Below are positions 845 through 15,027 of a stretch of DNA of 51,023 bases, in pieces. Source of the stretch: an uncultured Myxococcales bacterium (lineage in GTDB: Bacteria; Myxococcota_A; UBA9042); NCBI GenBank assembly GCA_903842345.1, contig CAIMLR010000048.1, forward strand, positions 1 through 51,023, in the 5' to 3' direction. Under the pieces are notes generated by a model that made no database searches, was not told the origin of the DNA, and saw only the letters and a list, made by a program, of their open reading frames with translations. The position numbers and the translations under genes are program-made. Numbering within the stretch: the stretch's first letter is position 1; each line of letters begins with the position of its first letter.

Positions 845-2815
845 ATGACTCGCCAGAACGCCCAGCCATGCCTCGCCGTCCTGATGGTACTCGCCACCGC
901 CTGCAGTTCACCTGTCCAGCCGCAGGTCGAGGCATTCGACGCCGGTCTTGGCAAGGACATTACCTCGTCGTTTGGCACCGACGGCACGTCCAGCCTGCCA
1001 GACAGCGACACACTCACGGACGCCACGGATCTCGACGCGTCGCAGGACACGTCGCCTGTCGATGACGACGTCCTCACCATCGACGACATCCCGCCCGACG
1101 TGCAGGCCCAGCCATGTGACAACGTCACCTGCAGCGGCCACGGCGTCTGCGTCCCTCTCTACGACGAGGCCTATTGCAAGTGCGACCCCGGCTTCTATCT
1201 CATGGGCACAACGCTCTGCGCCGACGTCAAGATCCCCGGTCCCTGCAATCCCAACCCATGCGTTGAGCCCGACAAGACGTCCTGCACCGATGGCGCGGGA
1301 ACGACAGTCTGCGGCTGCGCGCCCGGCTTCTTCGACATCGGTGGCGTCTGCACCTTTGGCTCCTGCCCCAGCATCAGCGCGACAACCGGCATCATCGTCT
1401 ACGACGACACAGGCGTCGGCTTGAGCGCCGGCATGGACCCACTGGAGCCCCAGGATACCGTGCAGTTGCGCGTGGACATCGAGGTGGCAAGCGGGCAGGG
1501 CGCCATCAGCCTGGAGCTGCATCCGTACAACCTCAGCTTCAACACCGCGCGGCTGGCATGCGACGGCGTGCCGTGCCCCGGGAAGATCAAGGGGCCGCTG
1601 CTGCTGGTGCCGCTGAACCTGACCGCCGGTCCGCATTCGGTAGAACTGACCGGCACGTTCCTGACCAATCAGGCGCCGCTCAGTCTCAACGCGCGGCTGG
1701 TGGCAGATGCCGGCTGTGAGCTGCCAGGCTCGCGCTCGGGTGTGCGCATCGGCGCGCTGGGTGTCCTGGACGCCAAGGGCATGGATTGCATCGACCTCGA
1801 CCGCACGCGCGCCGTCCAGGTGACCCACGATGTGGCGGAGAAGAGTACGTCAGCCTACGGCACAGCCAACGGTTCGGCGACGCAATACCAGCCGACCGCC
1901 AGCATCGTCAACGTCGTCGCGCAGTGCTTCTCGCGCAAGACCGACAGCGCGCTCTACCTTGCCGGTGACCCGCTGGGCGTGCTGCCGTGGGCGGTGGACA
2001 ACGACCTGGTGATTGAGCGCTATGACGCCCAGCCGCAGCCGGGGGATGTGCCGTCCGCGGTACTGCAGATTGGCACCGACACCGTGACCTCCAACCAGGG
2101 TATCGCGGTTTTTCATGGCTCCAAGCCGGACGTGCCGGGGACGCATTTCGGCATTCCCAACAGCGCGCCGTTTGGTTTCTCCGCTGGCCACGTGCGGCTG
2201 GACGAACTCGTGCCGCCGGGCAAGTCAGTCTGGCTGCGGTTTGTCGCGCTGGATTATGGTTCCGTCGGTCGGCTCACGCGGCTCTACGTCATCGCCGTGC
2301 CGCATAGCCAGGAGCCGCCGCGCTGCATCGACAACAGCCAATGCCCCGACGGTAAAGGTGGCACGCTCGCGGGATGCATCGACGGTCAATGCCTCGGCGC
2401 CACATGCCCCGCAGGCACCTGCCCCAGCAACCAATTCTGCGTCGGCGGCTTCTGTACCTCGCGCTGCGACCAGGGCGGCGGCACTTGCGCCAGTGGCCTG
2501 ACCTGCAAAGTCCGCGGCTGCGTGGCCCCCGGCGCGCCCGGCGTGTGCGACGCAGCGCAGCAGGACCAGGACTGCCCGCAAGGCCAAACCTGCCTCGCTG
2601 GCCGCTGCGAAACCGGCTGTCACCACCCGCGCAAACAGGATCAGACCTACAGCATCGACCCGACCTTCTGCGCCGGCAACAGCCCGGCATTGTGTCCGCA
2701 TTGCCCCGACCCCAAGCAGGGCTGCTGGAACAACGTGTGCAGCGAGTGCGAGGTCGACGCGGCATGTGGCGCGGGCCTGATCTGCGTGGACCGGAAGTGC
2801 GTCGTGGCGTGGTAG
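845..2815 (+). CDS. EGF-like, cysteine-rich surface lipoprotein (656 aa)
   Basis: An exported lipoprotein: residues 1-19 are a signal peptide with a hydrophobic core and the sequence LATAC, making Cys20 the lipidation site. An Asp/Ser/Thr-rich low-complexity linker (about 28-85) follows, typical of myxobacterial lipoproteins. Two EGF-like modules (about 91-126 and 133-168; CSGHGVCVPLYDEAYCKC, then CGCAPGFF) precede a roughly 330-residue beta-rich region of unknown fold. The last 170 residues are short Cys-rich repeats of the CxxxQCPDG / CPSNQFCVGGFC / CPQGQTCLAGRC type. There is no catalytic motif; a role in adhesion or extracellular binding is inferred from architecture only. It stands alone and is followed by a convergent methyltransferase gene. 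Confidence 0.85.
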   Translation: MTRQNAQPCLAVLMVLATACSSPVQPQVEAFDAGLGKDITSSFGTDGTSSLPDSDTLTDATDLDASQDTSPVDDDVLTIDDIPPDVQAQPCDNVTCSGHGVCVPLYDEAYCKCDPGFYLMGTTLCADVKIPGPCNPNPCVEPDKTSCTDGAGTTVCGCAPGFFDIGGVCTFGSCPSISATTGIIVYDDTGVGLSAGMDPLEPQDTVQLRVDIEVASGQGAISLELHPYNLSFNTARLACDGVPCPGKIKGPLLLVPLNLTAGPHSVELTGTFLTNQAPLSLNARLVADAGCELPGSRSGVRIGALGVLDAKGMDCIDLDRTRAVQVTHDVAEKSTSAYGTANGSATQYQPTASIVNVVAQCFSRKTDSALYLAGDPLGVLPWAVDNDLVIERYDAQPQPGDVPSAVLQIGTDTVTSNQGIAVFHGSKPDVPGTHFGIPNSAPFGFSAGHVRLDELVPPGKSVWLRFVALDYGSVGRLTRLYVIAVPHSQEPPRCIDNSQCPDGKGGTLAGCIDGQCLGATCPAGTCPSNQFCVGGFCTSRCDQGGGTCASGLTCKVRGCVAPGAPGVCDAAQQDQDCPQGQTCLAGRCETGCHHPRKQDQTYSIDPTFCAGNSPALCPHCPDPKQGCWNNVCSECEVDAACGAGLICVDRKCVVAW

Positions 2816-3890: not shown

Positions 3891-5156
3891 TCAGCGCGGC
3901 CGCGCCCGCAGCACCGTGCCCAGCAGCGCCGCCGCCAGCAGCGCGCCAGTCGCCATCAGCAGCAGCCCCGTCACGCGCGCCAGCCCATCCATGCCCGTGG
4001 CGATGGCCAGCACGCCGCTTGCCAACGTCGCCGCGTGGACGCGCAGGTTCCAGGTGACCTGGCGGTCAGTCAGAAGCTGCTTCATCGGCGGCACATCCGC
4101 CAGCCCCGCCACCGCGGCGAACCGGTGAAACCATACAAGGAATGGCACGATGCGCGTCAGCATCCCGTGGACCATCGCGCCCGCCCAGCCGATAATCGCC
4201 AGCCACGCAAACAGCAGCGGCGCGGGTTGCCAGTCGGTCAGCCACGCCGCGAGCGCCGCCAGCAGCGTCAACGGCGCACAGGCCAGCGCCAGCCACCAGA
4301 ACTGCAGGGTCGGATCGCGGCGCCGCCGACGGCGCTGGAGCAGCAGACGCCCGAGCATCAGCGGATGAACAAGCCAGATCGCCAGCGCGGCGGGCAGGGC
4401 GGCCAGCAGCACGGCCCACAGCGGCAGATGCAGGAGCGCGAGCACCGCCGCCAGCAGCACCGCAAGCGGTACCAGCAGCGCCAACGGCCGGGTCAGGCGC
4501 GGCAAAAAGGGCTGCGTGAGGTAGAACATCGGCACGACCTGCCACGCCACCGCCATCGTCAGCCCGCCAACCCAGCCCACCAGTCCGAGCGCGATGTGCA
4601 TCGCCAGCCAGACGCCGCGCGCTTCCGGCAACGCGCCGGTCGCATGTCCCCACGCCAGCCGCAGCCCCACGAGCGCCAGCACGAGCAGGCACCCGAGCGC
4701 GCCGCGCATCCCCGTCCGCGTGTCGCCCCCTCCTTGCGCGCGGATCAGCGCCACGCCCATCGGCAGCAGAAATCCCGTCAGCGCCAGCGCCAGCAGCGAT
4801 GCGCCAGTCACCAGCAGCGGGGGCACACCCAGCAACAGCCCGGCGACGAGCCCCGCCGTCCCCAGCGCCAGCGCGGCCGCCACCGCATAGGCGAGCCGAA
4901 TCACCGGCACCGGCGTCCCGACAACCACCGGCACCATCTGGTACATCGACCCCAGCATCGCCGGTGCCAGCAGCCCCAGCGTCCCCAGATGCGTCCAGGC
5001 AATCGTCTGCGGCAGCCAGTGGGTCACCAGCAGCAGGCTGCCCTGCCACGCCAGCAGCGCGCCCGCCGCCACAAGCGCCAGCGGAATCAGCGCATAGAAG
5101 CTCAACGGCACCGTCAGCGGCGGCGCCTGGTCCGTGGACAGCCCGCGTGTATTCAT
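3891..5156 (-). CDS. NnrS-like polytopic membrane protein (421 aa, about 12 TM)
   Basis: Nearly the whole protein is hydrophobic, with about twelve transmembrane segments. His-containing helices such as THWLPQTIAWTHLGTLGLLAPAMLGSMYQMVPVVVG and MVHGMLTRIVPFLVWFHRF resemble the heme/copper-linked NnrS family and related cbb3 subunit-I-like proteins, in which conserved His residues ligate metal. NnrS proteins protect against nitrosative stress. The start codon overlaps the stop of the TetR-DUF2249 gene (ATGA), so the two are translationally coupled. With the DUF2249 domains and the divergent hemerythrin this supports an NO/redox role, but the exact subfamily and any metal binding are inferred from motifs only. 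Confidence 0.78.
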   Translation of the reverse strand: MNTRGLSTDQAPPLTVPLSFYALIPLALVAAGALLAWQGSLLLVTHWLPQTIAWTHLGTLGLLAPAMLGSMYQMVPVVVGTPVPVIRLAYAVAAALALGTAGLVAGLLLGVPPLLVTGASLLALALTGFLLPMGVALIRAQGGGDTRTGMRGALGCLLVLALVGLRLAWGHATGALPEARGVWLAMHIALGLVGWVGGLTMAVAWQVVPMFYLTQPFLPRLTRPLALLVPLAVLLAAVLALLHLPLWAVLLAALPAALAIWLVHPLMLGRLLLQRRRRRRDPTLQFWWLALACAPLTLLAALAAWLTDWQPAPLLFAWLAIIGWAGAMVHGMLTRIVPFLVWFHRFAAVAGLADVPPMKQLLTDRQVTWNLRVHAATLASGVLAIATGMDGLARVTGLLLMATGALLAAALLGTVLRARPR

Positions 5157-6235
5157 GAGGCCGCCTCGACCCGCACGATCGCCGAGCCATCGGCAAGCTC
5201 AGCAACCTGCACCGCATGCCCGCGCGCTTGCAACTGCGGCAATGCCAGCCGTGGATTGCGCGGCAAGTGCGCCAGCAGCGCCGTATGTGGTCGCAGCCGC
5301 GCAGCGTGGGTCAGCAGCTGCTCCAGCGGTTCAGGCGGCTCCAGGTCGCGCAGATCCAGGCACGGCAGCGCGCTGTCAACAATCACGACGAGGCTCCACA
5401 GGCCATTGGGCCCCGCGTGCGCCGTCACGCGATGGCCGCGCCCAGTCAGCAGGGCCACCAGCGGTTTGGGCTGAAACGGCGCCGTCACCACCACCGCGGA
5501 CGTCGGCGCCAGCGTCGCGATTACCGCCAGCACGTCCACCAGCGGATCCACGCCGCGCGCAAGGATCGGCCGCACATCAAGCGCCAGCACCCCACACCTC
5601 AGCACCGGCATCTCCACCTGCGGCGCCTCCTGCGCGTCCGTTGTCTCCAACGCCGCCCGCCACAGCGCCGCGACCGGCCCCAGCCGCTCGCGCATCGGCC
5701 GCGGTGCTTGCTCACCCGCCAGCAGCCCTTGCAGCGCCAGACCCTGCACCATCCCGACAAACAGCGTCGCCGCCGCCTCCGGCTGCACCGCCTGCCGCAC
5801 CGCGCCATCGCGCCGGGCATCGCCCACCAACGTCGTCACGAGCGTGTGCTGCATTGTCACCAGATGCTGAACCGCGAGCCGCAGCTCCGGCGCCTCAAAG
5901 GCCAGGTCGGCGAACAGCAGCCGCGGCAGTCCCGGGTGCAGATCGACAAAATCCGCCAGCAAACTTGCCACGGCAAGGCACCGTTCAAGCGGCGGCATCG
6001 GCTGGGCGAGCAGGTGCGTCAGCTTCATGCTCAGCGCCAGCCGCGCCTCCTGCGCCACGGCCAGCAGCAACGCCTCGCGCGACTGGAAATGCCGGAACAG
6101 CGCCGGCTGGGTCACGCCCACGCGCTCGGCAATGTGCCGCGTCGTCAGGCGCTCCAGCGGGGTCGTCGCCAGCAGGTCAAGCACCGCAGTCAGGATCTGT
6201 TCGCGGCGCGGCAGATTGTGCAGGGGCAGGGTCAT
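5153..6235 (-). CDS. TetR-family regulator fused to two DUF2249 domains (360 aa)
   Basis: Residues about 5-55 form a TetR helix-turn-helix (REQILTAVLDLL...LTTRHIAERVGVTQPALFRHFQSREALLLAV), followed by an all-helical ligand domain to about 200. The C-terminal third carries two DUF2249-like modules: one opening VLALDVRPI...DPLVDVL with APFQPKPLVALL, and one opening CLDLRDLEPPEPLEQLL with RNPRLALPQLQARGHAV. DUF2249 proteins usually stand alone beside hemerythrin and NO-metabolism genes, so a direct fusion to a repressor is unusual. Start chosen at ATG 6235 because GGAG lies 7-8 bases upstream; a GTG at 6268 would add 11 residues without a good site. It probably represses itself and the divergent hemerythrin through the palindrome at 6286-6307. 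Confidence 0.85.
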   Translation of the reverse strand: MTLPLHNLPRREQILTAVLDLLATTPLERLTTRHIAERVGVTQPALFRHFQSREALLLAVAQEARLALSMKLTHLLAQPMPPLERCLAVASLLADFVDLHPGLPRLLFADLAFEAPELRLAVQHLVTMQHTLVTTLVGDARRDGAVRQAVQPEAAATLFVGMVQGLALQGLLAGEQAPRPMRERLGPVAALWRAALETTDAQEAPQVEMPVLRCGVLALDVRPILARGVDPLVDVLAVIATLAPTSAVVVTAPFQPKPLVALLTGRGHRVTAHAGPNGLWSLVVIVDSALPCLDLRDLEPPEPLEQLLTHAARLRPHTALLAHLPRNPRLALPQLQARGHAVQVAELADGSAIVRVEAAS

Positions 6236-6285
6236 GAGCAGCTCCGGATGGACGTGCGGGGCGAGCACTTGCCTCCGCTGCGCAC

Positions 6286-6307
6286 GATGTTATCATCTGA
6301 TAACATC
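6286..6307. promoter_or_regulatory. Perfect palindromic operator, probable TetR-DUF2249 binding site
   Basis: GATGTTATCA, a 2-base spacer TC, then the exact inverted copy TGATAACATC. It lies in the divergent interval between the TetR-family gene (start 6235) and the hemerythrin gene (start 6347). Toward the hemerythrin, TTGCCT (6269-6274) and TATCAT (6291-6296), 16 bases apart, form a plausible sigma-70 promoter whose -10 falls inside the palindrome, so binding would block transcription. Confidence 0.8.
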
Positions 6308-6346
6308 CCCCGCCAGTCCGGCGGGCTGGCAAAAACGGAGATGCAG

Positions 6347-6784
6347 ATGGCAACGACGAGCGAATTTCTGGGACAGGATCATGCGGCATGCGACACGCTG
6401 TGGGCGGACGTGGAGAGCAGCGCGGATGCAGGCAACCTCGCGGAGACGCGGGCGCGGTTCGCTGCGTTTGAGCGGGCGATGCAGCGGCACTTCGCGTTTG
6501 AGGAGGAATCGCTCTTTGCGGCGCTGGACAACGCGACGGGGATGCATGGCGTCGGTCCGACGGCGGTGATGCGGATGGAGCACGAGCAGATGCGCCGCGT
6601 CCTGCACACGATGGCCGGCGCGCTGGCGTCAGGCGACACGCAGGGGCTGATGGACCACGGCGATACGCTCCTGATGCTCATCCAGCAGCACAATATGAAG
6701 GAGGAGCACATCGTCTACCCGCTGGCGGATGCGCGGCTCGCGGGCGAGTGGGCGGCGTTGCAGGCGAAGTGGCCGGTCGCGTAG
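6347..6784 (+). CDS. Hemerythrin domain protein (145 aa)
   Basis: A single hemerythrin HHE four-helix bundle with the His/Glu residues expected for a non-heme di-iron site: QDHAACD, MQRHFAFEEESLF, MRMEHEQMRR and IQQHNMKEEHIVYP. Such proteins bind O2 or NO or protect/repair iron centres; cytosolic location is inferred from the lack of a signal peptide. Start taken as ATG 6347, because GGAG at 6337-6340 is 6 bases upstream; an ATG at 6341 abuts the GGAG. It is transcribed divergently from the TetR-DUF2249/NnrS-like operon across a perfect palindrome, so it is a likely target of that regulator. Confidence 0.9.
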   Translation: MATTSEFLGQDHAACDTLWADVESSADAGNLAETRARFAAFERAMQRHFAFEEESLFAALDNATGMHGVGPTAVMRMEHEQMRRVLHTMAGALASGDTQGLMDHGDTLLMLIQQHNMKEEHIVYPLADARLAGEWAALQAKWPVA

Positions 6785-6887: not shown

Positions 6888-7727
6888 ATGCGCACACCCA
6901 GCGGCCTGATTTCCCTCCTGGATCAAGGCATCATTGACCAGGTCGTCCGCCCGCTGATGAGCGGCAAGGAGGCACAGGTCTACCTTGTCGTCTCCGATGG
7001 CGAGGAGCGCGTCGCCAAGGTCTACAAGGACGCGGAACACCGGTCGTTCAAGCACCGCGCCGACTACACGGAAGGCCGCCGCTCCAAGAGCTCGCGCGAC
7101 GAGCGGGCGATGAAGAAAGGCAGCAAGCACGGCAAGGCGCAGGAAGAAGAGGCCTGGCGGTGCGCGGAAGTCGACATGATCTACCGGCTGCGCGATGCCG
7201 GCGTGCGCGTGCCAGTGCCGTACCATTTTCTCGACGGCGTGCTGGTGATGGAGCTGGTGAAGGATGCCGACGGCAATCCGGCGCCGCGCTTGGGTGAAGT
7301 CGCGATGGACGTGCCAACGGCGCAGAAGACGTTCGATTTCCTCCTGCGCGAGGTCGTGAAGATGCTGTGCGCGGGCGTTGTGCACGGCGATCTGTCCGAC
7401 TTCAACGTGCTCATGGGCGCGGATGGGCCGGTCATCATCGATTTTCCGCAGTCGCTCGACGCAGCTGGCAACCAGAACGCGCGGGAGATCCTGCTGCGGG
7501 ACGTCGGCAACCTGAACCGCTTCCTGCTCGGCCATGGCGCGCCGGAGGATCAGCCGCTCAAGCACGGCGCGGAGATGTGGGAAAAATACGCGCGCGGCGA
7601 ACTGCGCCCGGATTCGACGCTGACGGGCAAGCACCAGGGCTCGGAGACGCGCGTGGACCTGCGCGGGCTGATTCGCGAACTGGAAGCGGACGAAGCGGAC
7701 GAGATGCGCCGGCGCGGCGGCCGGTAG
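6888..7727 (+). CDS. RIO-family serine protein kinase (279 aa)
   Basis: An atypical protein kinase of the RIO1 type. Motifs in order: GLISLLDQGIIDQVVRPLMSGKEAQVYLV (nucleotide-binding strands), RVAKVYK (ATP-anchoring Lys), a Lys/Arg-rich RIO loop (GRRSKSSRDERAMKKGSK), VVHGDLSDFNVLM (catalytic loop with HGD for HRD) and VIIDFPQ (metal-binding Asp). Bacterial members have no settled function, while eukaryotic and archaeal members act in ribosome assembly. Start at ATG 6888 is preferred because the family usually begins here; an upstream in-frame ATG exists. It is monocistronic and convergent with the next gene. Confidence 0.88.
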   Translation: MRTPSGLISLLDQGIIDQVVRPLMSGKEAQVYLVVSDGEERVAKVYKDAEHRSFKHRADYTEGRRSKSSRDERAMKKGSKHGKAQEEEAWRCAEVDMIYRLRDAGVRVPVPYHFLDGVLVMELVKDADGNPAPRLGEVAMDVPTAQKTFDFLLREVVKMLCAGVVHGDLSDFNVLMGADGPVIIDFPQSLDAAGNQNAREILLRDVGNLNRFLLGHGAPEDQPLKHGAEMWEKYARGELRPDSTLTGKHQGSETRVDLRGLIRELEADEADEMRRRGGR

Positions 7728-11267: not shown

Positions 11268-14200
11268 CTATTTGACGAACAGCACAACGTTGTCGATGCC
11301 AAAGGCCTCGTCGGACGCGGCCTGGTCGAGGTTGCTGGTGAGCGTGACGGTCGCGGTCGCCGCGGTGTGTGCCGTGAGGATCGGATTGCCCGGATCCCAC
11401 AAGTCGTCCTGGTAGTCCCAGCGGCCGCACTTGTTGTTCCAGCCGCCGGTCCACTCGTTGGCGATGCTCTGCTTGGCCCAGACCTGCGCGCCGTCGATCC
11501 TGGCGATGGCGTACTCTGCGTCCCAGGAATCCAGACGCGCGTACTGGAACCACAGCTTGGTCTGCGTGTGCGGTGGCGCGTTCACCGTCTTGGCCGGTGC
11601 GGCTCCTGCGCCAAATTGCCCGGCGCCGCCGAGGATCTTGCCGTAGTTCCCGCAGCCGCTGACCGTGCCCTGGCTCCAGCCGCCTTGGCTCTTCTCAAAG
11701 TCGTCGGAGATGAGCCGCGTCCAGCCGCCGTTCTTCATGTCGCAGTAGTACTGGCCGACCGCGATGGGGCCAGAGCTGTCGATGTCCAGCCAGTAGGTGC
11801 CGTCCGCGCTCTTGGGCAGGGCCTGGAAGATGGCGAGGCAGGAGAGGGCGGGCGCTCCGGGACCGCTGCCGAGCGCGCCGCAGACCGTGCCGTCCCCGAC
11901 CAGGCCGGCGGGGCACGTGCAGGTGAAGCTTCCCGGCGTGTTGGCGCACGTCGCATTCACGGCGCAGTTGCTCTTGCCGGTCGTGCACTCGTTGACGTCC
12001 GCGCAGGTCTTGCCGTCGCCGACGTAGCCGGCCTTGCAGGTGCAGGTGTAGCTGCCCACGGTGTTGGCGCACGTCGCTTCCGCCGCGCAGACCGCCGTGC
12101 CCAGCGCGCATTCGTCGACGTCTACGCAACCGCCGTTCGCAGCGGCGTAGCCCGCGGGGCAGACCGTGCAGTTCAACTGGCCCGTCGTGTCCATCTCGCA
12201 GATCGAGTTCGCGCCGCAGACGCCGGGCTGCGTCGTGCAAAGGTCCTCAAATACCGCGAAATCGTCGATGAACCAGCCCGCGTTCAAGTCCGCGTCGCAC
12301 GTGCCGGCAAAGGCGAAGCGGAAGCGCAGCGTGTGGCCAGCCCACGCGGTGCTGGTGAACGTCAGCTTGGTCCACGCCGCGGTCGCGGTGACGGGGGCCA
12401 AATCGGTGAACGCGCCGCCGTCGATTTGCACGGCGACGGTCGCGGACTTGGTCGCCGCCCAGTTGCCGGCGCTGTAGAACGTCAGCTTCGTCGTGGTGCC
12501 GGTCGCCATCGCGGCCAGGTCGATGCTCGGGGAGGTCGCGGTCGCGTTGAGGCTCGCCTGGCCGCTGCCACACTGGACGTCCGTGCCGTTGTTGATGTTC
12601 AGCGAGCACGACTTGGATTGCGGCGCGGGGATCGCGGGCGTGGCGTCAAAGCCCCACTTCACGGCGCCGTCGGCCAGGAGCGCATCGGAGCGCTGCCACA
12701 AGTCCAGGCTGCCCGAGCCGCAGTTGAACGGCTCCGCGTACGTGCTGGTGATTTGGCAAGCGTTGCCCGCGAGCGGTGTGTTGACGCAGCCGCCGACCGG
12801 GTCGCAGCTGTCGGCGGTGCACGCAAAGCCGTCGTTGCAGGTCACGGGCGTGCCGGCGCAGCTGCCGGCGCCGCACATGTCGCCGCTCGTGCAGGCGTTG
12901 CCATCGTTGCACGCCGCCGTGTTGGCCACGTGCGCGCAGCCGCTCGTGGGGTTGCAGCTGTCGATCGTGCAGTCATTGTCGTCGTTGCACGGCAGCGTGC
13001 CCTGCGGCTGGCAGGTGCTCGCGGCGCAGATTTCGCCGGTTGTGCAGACGTCGCCGTCGTCACACGTCTTGCCGTTGTTCTGCGCGGCGAACTTGCACGC
13101 GCCGTCCGCCGGGTCGCAGCTGTTGAGCCGGCAGAGCGTGTCGCTGGCCGGGTCGCAGGTCACGACCGTCGTCGGGTTGACCTTGCACACGTACGGCGCG
13201 GCGGACTTGGCGCAGTACAGCGTGCCGTTGCACTTGTTGCCGTCTTCGTACTGGGCGCAGTCGCTGTCGGCCTGGCAGTTGCAGGCGTTCTGGGTGCCCG
13301 CGAGGCACGCGCCCTCCTTGCAGATGTCGCCGCTCGTGCAAGCGTCGCCGTCGTCGCAAGTGCCCGTATTGTTGACGTGCTGGCAGCCCAGCGCGCTGTC
13401 GCAAGAATCCGTGGTGCACGGGTTCTTGTCGTCGCAATCCGCGACCGTGCCAGCGCACTTGCCGGCGCTGCAGGCGTCCTTGACGGTGCAGAAATCGCCG
13501 TCGTCGCAGTCGCCGGAAATCGCAGTCGCCAGGCACGTGCCGCCGGTGCAGACGTCGCTCGTGCACGCGTTCTTGTCGTCACACATCGCGCCGATGCCGG
13601 TCTGGATGCCGTCGTCCGTGGCGCCGTTGCAGTCGTTGTCGACGTTGTCGCAGACCTCCGTCACGGCGACGGGCGCGCTGCACGCGGTCAAGCCGGCGTC
13701 GCCGCAGCTGCGGGAGCCGGTGCAGCCGGTGATGGTCGAGCCGTCCGGGGCGGTCTTGCTGCTTGCGCACGTCGTGCTGGCTTTGGTGGCCGTGGCGAGG
13801 CTGCTGCAACTGCACGTGTTGCTCTTGGGCCGGCAGAACGTCGCGGTGTCGCCGTCAACGGTGTTGGCGCTTTGGCACGCGTAGTCGGCGGGGCAGTCCT
13901 TGTCGGACAAGCAGAAATTGGCGCAGTACCAGCCGCTCGCGCCGTCCACTTCCGTGCCGGTGGGCGCGGTGCCCAGGCCGATGCACGCGACCTTGTCGAC
14001 GCCCGCGCTCGGGCACGTGGCGGACGTTGCGCACGGGTCGCACAGGTGGGGGAATTTCGGCGCGCACACGGATTTGTCGTCGTCCGTCGTCAGCGTGTCC
14101 GGGCCGGGAATGTTGACGCAAGTCGTGCCGTCGCTGCACGCCGTACCCGAGAGGCAGGGGGCGAGGCACTGCTTGCCGGCCGCCGTGTCCGCGCAAACGG

Positions 14201-14567
14201 TGATGGCCGGGCAATCGCCGTCGACTTTGCACGGGCAGCCAAAGTCGCCCGGGCACGTCGTGCTGCTGTCCGGTTTGGTGTCGGAGCCGCCGATGTCGGC
14301 GTCCGCGGAGGTTGCGCCGTCGCCAAGGGAGATGGCGTCCGTGCCCTGGCTGTCCAACGGCGGGAGCTCCCATTTCGGGACGTCGACGCCCGTGGCCGCG
14401 TCGCTGCCCGGGTCCGCGTCTCCCAGCGAGTCGCCCAGACCGACGTCATCGGTCGCGCCGCTTTGGTCGTTGTCGACGAGCGTCGATTGAATCGCCAAGT
14501 CATCGCCGCACGCGGCGAAAGACAAGACCAAGGCAAGTGCAGCGGCGAGGGAGATCGCTGATTTCAT
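11268..14567 (-). CDS. Large mosaic cysteine-rich lipoprotein (1099 aa)
   Basis: Signal peptide ending LSFAAC with Cys20 as lipidation site. Architecture in order, approximate residues: Asp/Thr/Ser-rich linker (25-110); Cys-rich modules (115-300); one MopE-type motif [16 protein letters not shown] (about 305-320); a run of [18 protein letters not shown]-type repeats (320-610); a jelly-roll/ConA-like beta domain (about 610-775); a DVDECALG calcium-binding EGF followed by a DVNECTTG one (about 790-890); and the front half of a fibrinogen-C-like domain, [41 protein letters not shown] (about 905-950), followed by a beta-rich tail. This is an animal-like extracellular mosaic typical of Myxococcota. 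Adhesion, prey or glycan binding is inferred only. Start has AGGA 8-9 bases upstream. Confidence 0.85.
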
Positions 14568-14643
14568 GTCAGATCCTTTGTGTTGCGGCCAAGAGACGTT
14601 GGATACGCACCGCGCGAGGATAGCGGATCTTCGGGAGCGATGC

Positions 14644-15027
14644 ATGTCACGCCTTGGCAAACCTTACACATTCTGGCAAGTCGTCGGCATGACAAAACCG
14701 CCGCTCAAGCCGTTCGTGGAGATTCTCGTTGCGCCGCATGCCGCGCTGCCCGATGGCTGCGCGCTGCGCTACAAGGCGGAGTCGCCGGTGCGGCAGGTGG
14801 CGCGCGTGCTGTACGAACCGGACGACGGGCCGGACGGCGTTTGGCAGGTCAACGGGCAAGACGCCGCCGGCCGCATGACGACGGCGCGCGCCGTCCAGGT
14901 CGAGGATTCCGGCGCGGGCACTTCCTGGTTGATTTGGGGCGACGCCTTTGGCCTGCGCCTGCGCCACGGCGATACGCTCGTTGCGGAGACGCACCTGCTG
15001 CTCGCGCTGGACCAGATCGTCGATTAG
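14644..15027 (+). CDS. Hypothetical protein (127 aa)
   Basis: No family recognised. The frame has normal composition and a strong ribosome-binding site (GGGAG, 6 bases before ATG 14644); an alternative ATG at 14689 begins [23 protein letters not shown]. The sequence alternates short strand-like segments ([47 protein letters not shown]), suggesting a small all-beta domain. There is no signal peptide, metal motif or Cys pair. It is divergent from the large lipoprotein gene (77 bases apart), and its stop overlaps the purN stop by 4 bases in tail-to-tail orientation. Confidence 0.65.

Follow-up and report, generated by a model that had tools for sequence, protein, structure and literature searches.

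What does a domain of unknown function do in a transcriptional repressor? This question is raised by a locus within a stretch of 51,023 nucleotides from an uncultured Myxococcales bacterium (contig CAIMLR010000048.1), which was analysed as a whole and is called the window below. The domain is DUF2249, which according to PMC11218638 is found widely and repeatedly in the neighborhood of nitrogen-oxide and heme-copper genes, its published context including haloarchaeal denitrification. An earlier note, made from the sequence of the window, had placed a TetR repressor with two DUF2249 domains at 5153–6784. This interval does contain the fusion gene, on the reverse strand, but it also spans a divergent hemerythrin gene on the forward strand (6341–6784) and hence covers two genes.

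The Fusion Protein and Its Occurrence

The open reading frame of the fusion extends from 5153 to 6268 on the reverse strand. Its likely start is the ATG at position 6235, which is backed by the similar N-termini of 13 aligned relatives and yields a gene from 5153 to 6235 with 360 codons and a stop. Searches with Pfam located a TetR_N DNA-binding domain (PF00440) at residues 14–60 (6056–6196, reverse strand; E 1.8e-12, 47.3 bits at a cut-off of 24), and two stretches of DUF2249 (PF10006; E 6.1e-18), both of which read without internal stop. When the two copies were scored separately against the Pfam cut-off of 29.5 bits, copy A (5396–5581, reverse strand) came out barely above it with 29.8 bits and copy B (5168–5359, reverse strand) reached 41.9 bits. 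The earlier note had named a failure of profiles to find DUF2249 in residues 200–360 as evidence against a fusion; the domain was found there twice, both copies above the cut-off, and the claim of TetR and two DUF2249 domains in one protein is thus borne out. Apart from these two copies, the 5.85-Mb genome of the organism gave no DUF2249 match at E≤1.

An AlphaFold2 model calculated with 14 relatives as input had a mean pLDDT of 87.4. The whole TetR part comprises residues 8 to 198 approximately and has a fold like SlmA, with an all-helical body that superimposes on 4gct_C with a Z score of 21.5 (rmsd 2.1, 188 residues aligned); in the fold comparison of the fusion the TetR part filled the entire match list. 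Residues 201–210 are of low confidence in the model, which would fit a linker from the TetR part to the DUF2249 pair, and the length of this intervening stretch varies among relatives.

Homologues of the fusion occur in 13 other genomes with 36–70% identity along the whole length, so that full or nearly full-length matches were obtained in 14 of 52 related genomes, including the organism's own. A contig scan gave 208 relatives, the best 80 of which were analysed. Forty-four of these 80 are fused, two end inside the TetR part (L091 and L092, which like L189 stop at contig edges), one carries an unfused TetR gene (L094), and 33 have a TetR part without DUF2249 (L095–L097 and L099–L128; by record title mostly Rhodobacterales). 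The survey for the same fusion suggested in the earlier note thus succeeded: the fused loci among the best 80 of the 208, together with the window and the loci from a phylum search, amount after removal of duplicates to at least 47 distinct ones, found in many separate assemblies, and the divergent hemerythrin gene is in view in 45 of them. By record title Myxococcota are commonest, followed by Pseudomonadota, Planctomycetota, Acidobacteriota, and Gemmatimonadota, these phylum names being labels of metagenome-assembled genomes, some of them possibly wrong. Three fused loci have a single DUF2249 (L085, L093, L098), which means that the pair is not essential. A plasmid search with the fusion gave no match, and a literature search found no description of a TetR-DUF2249 fusion.

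The Gene Module and Its Membrane Protein

The fusion gene lies in a recurrent order of genes, with a divergent hemerythrin gene on one side and a gene for a membrane protein on the other. The hemerythrin-like protein of 147 amino acids (6341–6784, forward strand) matches PF01814 with an E value of 7.5e-18 and 65.7 bits at a cut-off of 25.3, and an alignment of 16 sequences contains the invariant ligand-type residues H14, H50, E54, E55, H81, H117, E121, and E122. This confirms the hemerythrin which the earlier note had assigned to the module. On the other side the stop codon of the fusion overlaps the start of the membrane-protein gene by four bases (ATGA, 5153–5156 in the window). Versions of the module without TetR also exist, and in eight of them (L037, L038, L171, L175, L178, L184, L192, L193) DUF2249 stands alone between the hemerythrin and the membrane-protein gene; in the TetR-less loci L170, L186, and L194 no DUF2249 was seen at this position. 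On the evidence of these sequences DUF2249 is a component of the module which has been joined to a repressor.

Some further observations concern the surroundings. In a Sulfuriferula metagenome-assembled genome (L094, 422–3099) an unfused TetR gene converges on a hemerythrin-DUF2249-membrane protein operon, a possible unfused counterpart. The hemerythrin gene of the window is adjoined by a gene for a PA4780-type RIO1-like kinase (6891–7727, forward strand; 365.5 bits at an NCBIfam cut-off of 350); in L024–L026, loci of the same genus, the two genes are likewise neighbors. Two large genes nearby (845–2815, forward strand, and 11268–14660, reverse strand) appear from their translations to encode cysteine-rich, EGF-like proteins of secreted or lipoprotein type.

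The membrane protein (3891–5156, reverse strand) had been called NnrS-like in the earlier note. It has no match in Pfam at E≤1, PF05940 (NnrS) included; the only true NnrS of the genome is encoded elsewhere (G000:C47:179049-180119), and hhalign of the membrane-protein profile (A2) with true NnrS gave a probability of 0.5%, so the NnrS identity was rejected. What the structural model (pLDDT 93.4) and fold comparison indicate instead are 12 helices in the fold of heme-copper-oxidase subunit I, with matches to cbb3 oxidase (3mk7_D; Z 32.0, rmsd 3.5, 387 residues aligned) and NO reductase (4xyd_A; Z 30.0, rmsd 3.7, 378 residues aligned). The PF00115 (COX1) profile does not match the protein of the window and matches only one of 15 relatives, at an E value of 0.0035, and a PDB sequence search with the alignment found nothing convincing. 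Invariant histidines are His56 in helix 2, His187 in helix 6, His330 in helix 10, His344 at the end of helix 10, and His374 in helix 11. The enzymes of the heme-copper oxidase and NO reductase type have a metal-binding histidine in helix 7; alignment and model of the membrane protein contain no invariant histidine in this helix. From the order of helices in the model the protein could thus keep a heme site but not a full binuclear center. It shares 12 helices, the CcoN/NorB fold, and invariant histidines in helices 2, 6, and 10 with the heme-copper-oxidase homology proteins reportedly described by Pei et al. in 2014, but differs from them by the lack of an invariant helix 7 histidine and of a PF00115 match. 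In the phylum, 52 of 235 genomes gave a match to its profile. A remote lineage of the oxidase-fold protein (L200, L202, L205) is located near DUF2249 copies, several of them in one shared frame.

A Palindrome as Predicted Operator

Between the divergent fusion and hemerythrin genes lies a palindrome, ATGTTATC-N4-GATAACAT, at 6287–6306 (without strand), with a 12-base core which spans 6289–6304. The pattern matches once between the genes, and 100 shuffles gave no match with three or fewer mismatches. Of the 45 fused loci that show the hemerythrin gene (distinct loci from the best 80 of the 208 relatives, the window, and the phylum search), 44 have the core in exact form and one (L169) has it with one mismatch; 100 dinucleotide-shuffled sets did not contain it. 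In two fused loci without visible hemerythrin gene the core has one (L078) and two mismatches (L084). Conservation of the sequence drops at the edges of the palindrome in the fused loci. A sigma-70-like promoter for the hemerythrin gene is predicted at 6269–6296 on the forward strand (TTGCCT-16-TATCAT with TG before the −10; one found, 0.1 expected), and its −10 element falls within the palindrome.

None of 11 TetR-less module loci has the core within three mismatches, the best matches having four to six; FNR-type boxes were also sought in the TetR-less loci, where the best matches had two to five mismatches and formed no consistent pattern. Association of TetR presence with the operator has a Fisher p value of 7e-12, kinship being ignored in this figure. 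In a tree of the membrane protein four changes of TetR state and four changes of site state are found, and two independent pairs of TetR and operator changes on supported branches agree with none against, a number too small for a significant sign test. The TetR-less loci L037 and L038 nest in the fused group with L057 (starred branch, 95/94), which indicates that TetR and operator probably went together, loss of both being the likely direction there. In the 33 TetR relatives without DUF2249 no operator within one mismatch was found upstream of the TetR gene; the neighbors in L128 and L095 are efflux genes of MacB/HlyD type (Pfam; three such loci examined).

From these findings the fusion very probably binds the palindrome. 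As the predicted operator is conserved and contains the predicted −10 element, repression is the natural reading, and the fusion is likely to be a local autorepressor of the module. Five exact core sites are present in the genome, with none for a control pattern; four of them are inside predicted genes, and the one between the fusion and hemerythrin genes is the sole intergenic one. A wider regulon of exact sites was rejected on these grounds. That another regulator of the module binds the palindrome and the TetR fusion acts elsewhere is highly improbable, since all 45 fused loci that show the hemerythrin gene have the core with at most one mismatch and none of the 11 TetR-less ones does.

Two variants of the site may be mentioned. 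In two loci labelled Planctomycetota (L082, 4353–4383; L088, 4959–4990) the operator occurs twice in adjacent copies, the second copy of L082 with one mismatch. In L085 and L098 it abuts a possible ATG start codon for the fusion (GATAACATG), and the message might be leaderless there.

The DUF2249 Copies and Nitrogen Oxides

For the ligand of the DUF2249 pair NO, iron, or a redox metabolite had been suggested. Canonical DUF2249, as represented by the 11 strongest matches, has recurrent histidines within KH/RH and NDHDP-like motifs. These histidines are absent from both copies in all 14 fusions compared. In the alignment of the fusion no cysteine is invariant, and the only invariant histidine is situated in the DNA-binding part. 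Direct sensing of iron or NO-iron by DUF2249 has therefore become less likely. The predicted elements of copy A follow the order strand-helix-strand-helix-strand-strand (AlphaFold2), and profile comparison by hhalign to TusA gave probabilities of 35% for copy A and 65% for copy B, about as good as those to canonical DUF2249 (52% and 47%). Element order and profile comparison are suggestive of a kinship of the fused DUF2249 to TusA, without the TusA cysteine, and go no further than that; a PDB sequence search with the pair found nothing convincing.

The genome carries nirK. Its PF00115 genes are two only, one CtaD-like and one CcoN-like, with no NorB among them. Support for an NO signal by co-occurrence of nirK with the module was rejected, as nirK is found in 15 of 52 module genomes and 36 of 183 others (p 0.18), which is not beyond chance. 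NO as the signal is thus a guess rather than a finding.

Comparison with Known Systems

With one-component repressors of the TetR family (TetR, EthR, and FadR type; SlmA nearest in fold) the fusion shares the helix-turn-helix, the all-helical body, and a palindrome beside a divergent gene; what it adds are the two C-terminal DUF2249 domains. Known members of this family sense via the helical body. COG4309, which we take to be DUF2249, offers a second comparison. In the part of PMC1274295 on NsrR and NnrR regulons its genes occur together with norB, which resembles the present module in that DUF2249 accompanies a membrane protein of heme-copper type and that a dedicated regulator controls them. 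There, however, DUF2249 is a target gene, whereas here it is part of the regulator, and the oxidase-fold protein belongs to another family and is not NorB. A third case is the DrpA/DrpB system of Thermus thermophilus, where DrpB consists of a DUF1858 and two DUF2249 domains and acts negatively on genes of nitrate respiration, as described in the relevant portion of PMC6282519. Tandem DUF2249 and a negative effect on genes of a respiratory module are common to both systems. DrpB has no detectable DNA-binding motif in the account given in that portion, where an indirect action by conformational change or by binding to and unbinding from the membrane is proposed (PMC6282519); in the fusion, in contrast, the DUF2249 pair is attached to a DNA-binding repressor.

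Proposed Mechanism and Alternative Explanations

Taken together, the fusion is probably, with considerable room for doubt, a repressor which is dedicated to a redox module of three genes, regulates its own expression, and has the DUF2249 pair as its input side. A dimer of the TetR part would bind the palindrome, which lies between the two divergent promoters, and would silence the hemerythrin gene as well as its own operon, which comprises the fusion and the membrane protein. Both binding and repression are read from the position and conservation of the palindrome, its overlap with the predicted −10 element, and its absence from the TetR-less module loci. The DUF2249 pair on its flexible linker would report the state of the module, the input being a small ligand or a contact, either with hemerythrin or with the oxidase-fold membrane protein, to which the fusion is translationally coupled, and this input would release the repressor so that the module is made on need. 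As DUF2249 elsewhere is a stand-alone protein of the module, the simplest history would be the joining of two genes from one and the same module, one for TetR and the other for DUF2249.

The idea of the earlier note that DUF2249 is the sensory part of a one-component switch is hereby retained in part, a sensory role of DUF2249 being plausible. The architecture is real, conserved, tied to the hemerythrin and membrane-protein genes, and accompanied by a conserved predicted operator; the original role of DUF2249 was not that of a sensor for a TetR switch, since it is a separate gene in TetR-less modules.

Two alternatives deserve discussion. In the first, the membrane partner sequesters the repressor: the oxidase-fold protein (or hemerythrin) is a docking site for the DUF2249 pair, which binds no small ligand, and the repressor leaves the DNA when there is much of this partner or when the partner is in a certain redox state. 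This is a special case of the input side proposed above, and we regard it as possible though doubtful. It draws on the four-base overlap of the fusion and membrane-protein genes, on the place of DUF2249 between the hemerythrin and membrane-protein genes even without TetR (L037, L038, L171, L175, L178, L184), on the lack of invariant metal- or thiol-type residues in DUF2249, and on the SlmA-like fold of the TetR part. SlmA is controlled by protein contact.

C-terminal domains of TetR proteins usually bind ligands, and the C-terminal helices of the TetR part rather than DUF2249 could be the sensor. In the second alternative, which appears rather unlikely, their pocket senses a small molecule and DUF2249 is a passenger effector fused for the sake of co-production. 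The occurrence of DUF2249 alone in the same module and the low-confidence, length-variable stretch which separates it from TetR would fit; against it, at least 47 distinct loci retain the fusion, even though in sister loci DUF2249 is a separate protein. A sequencing or assembly error which merged two genes, named in the earlier note as a way to refute the fusion, is practically impossible in view of relatives along the whole length and of fused loci in that number across many separate assemblies.

Returning to the autoregulated repressor, a more specific form of it may be put forward as a speculation to which we give a minor chance. Two TusA-like DUF2249 domains would read the oxidase-fold heme membrane protein (its NO, oxygen, or redox state) by direct contact and pass this state on to TetR, so that the module would sense through its own effector. 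If this is true, DUF2249 would be a signal-transfer domain linking heme-copper-type proteins and transcription.

A conserved module of hemerythrin, TetR-DUF2249, and an oxidase-fold protein is now defined, which present family libraries name only in part. As DUF2249 is here fused to a repressor for which a 20-bp operator is predicted, a simple assay becomes possible, in which the signal that releases the repressor would show what DUF2249 responds to.
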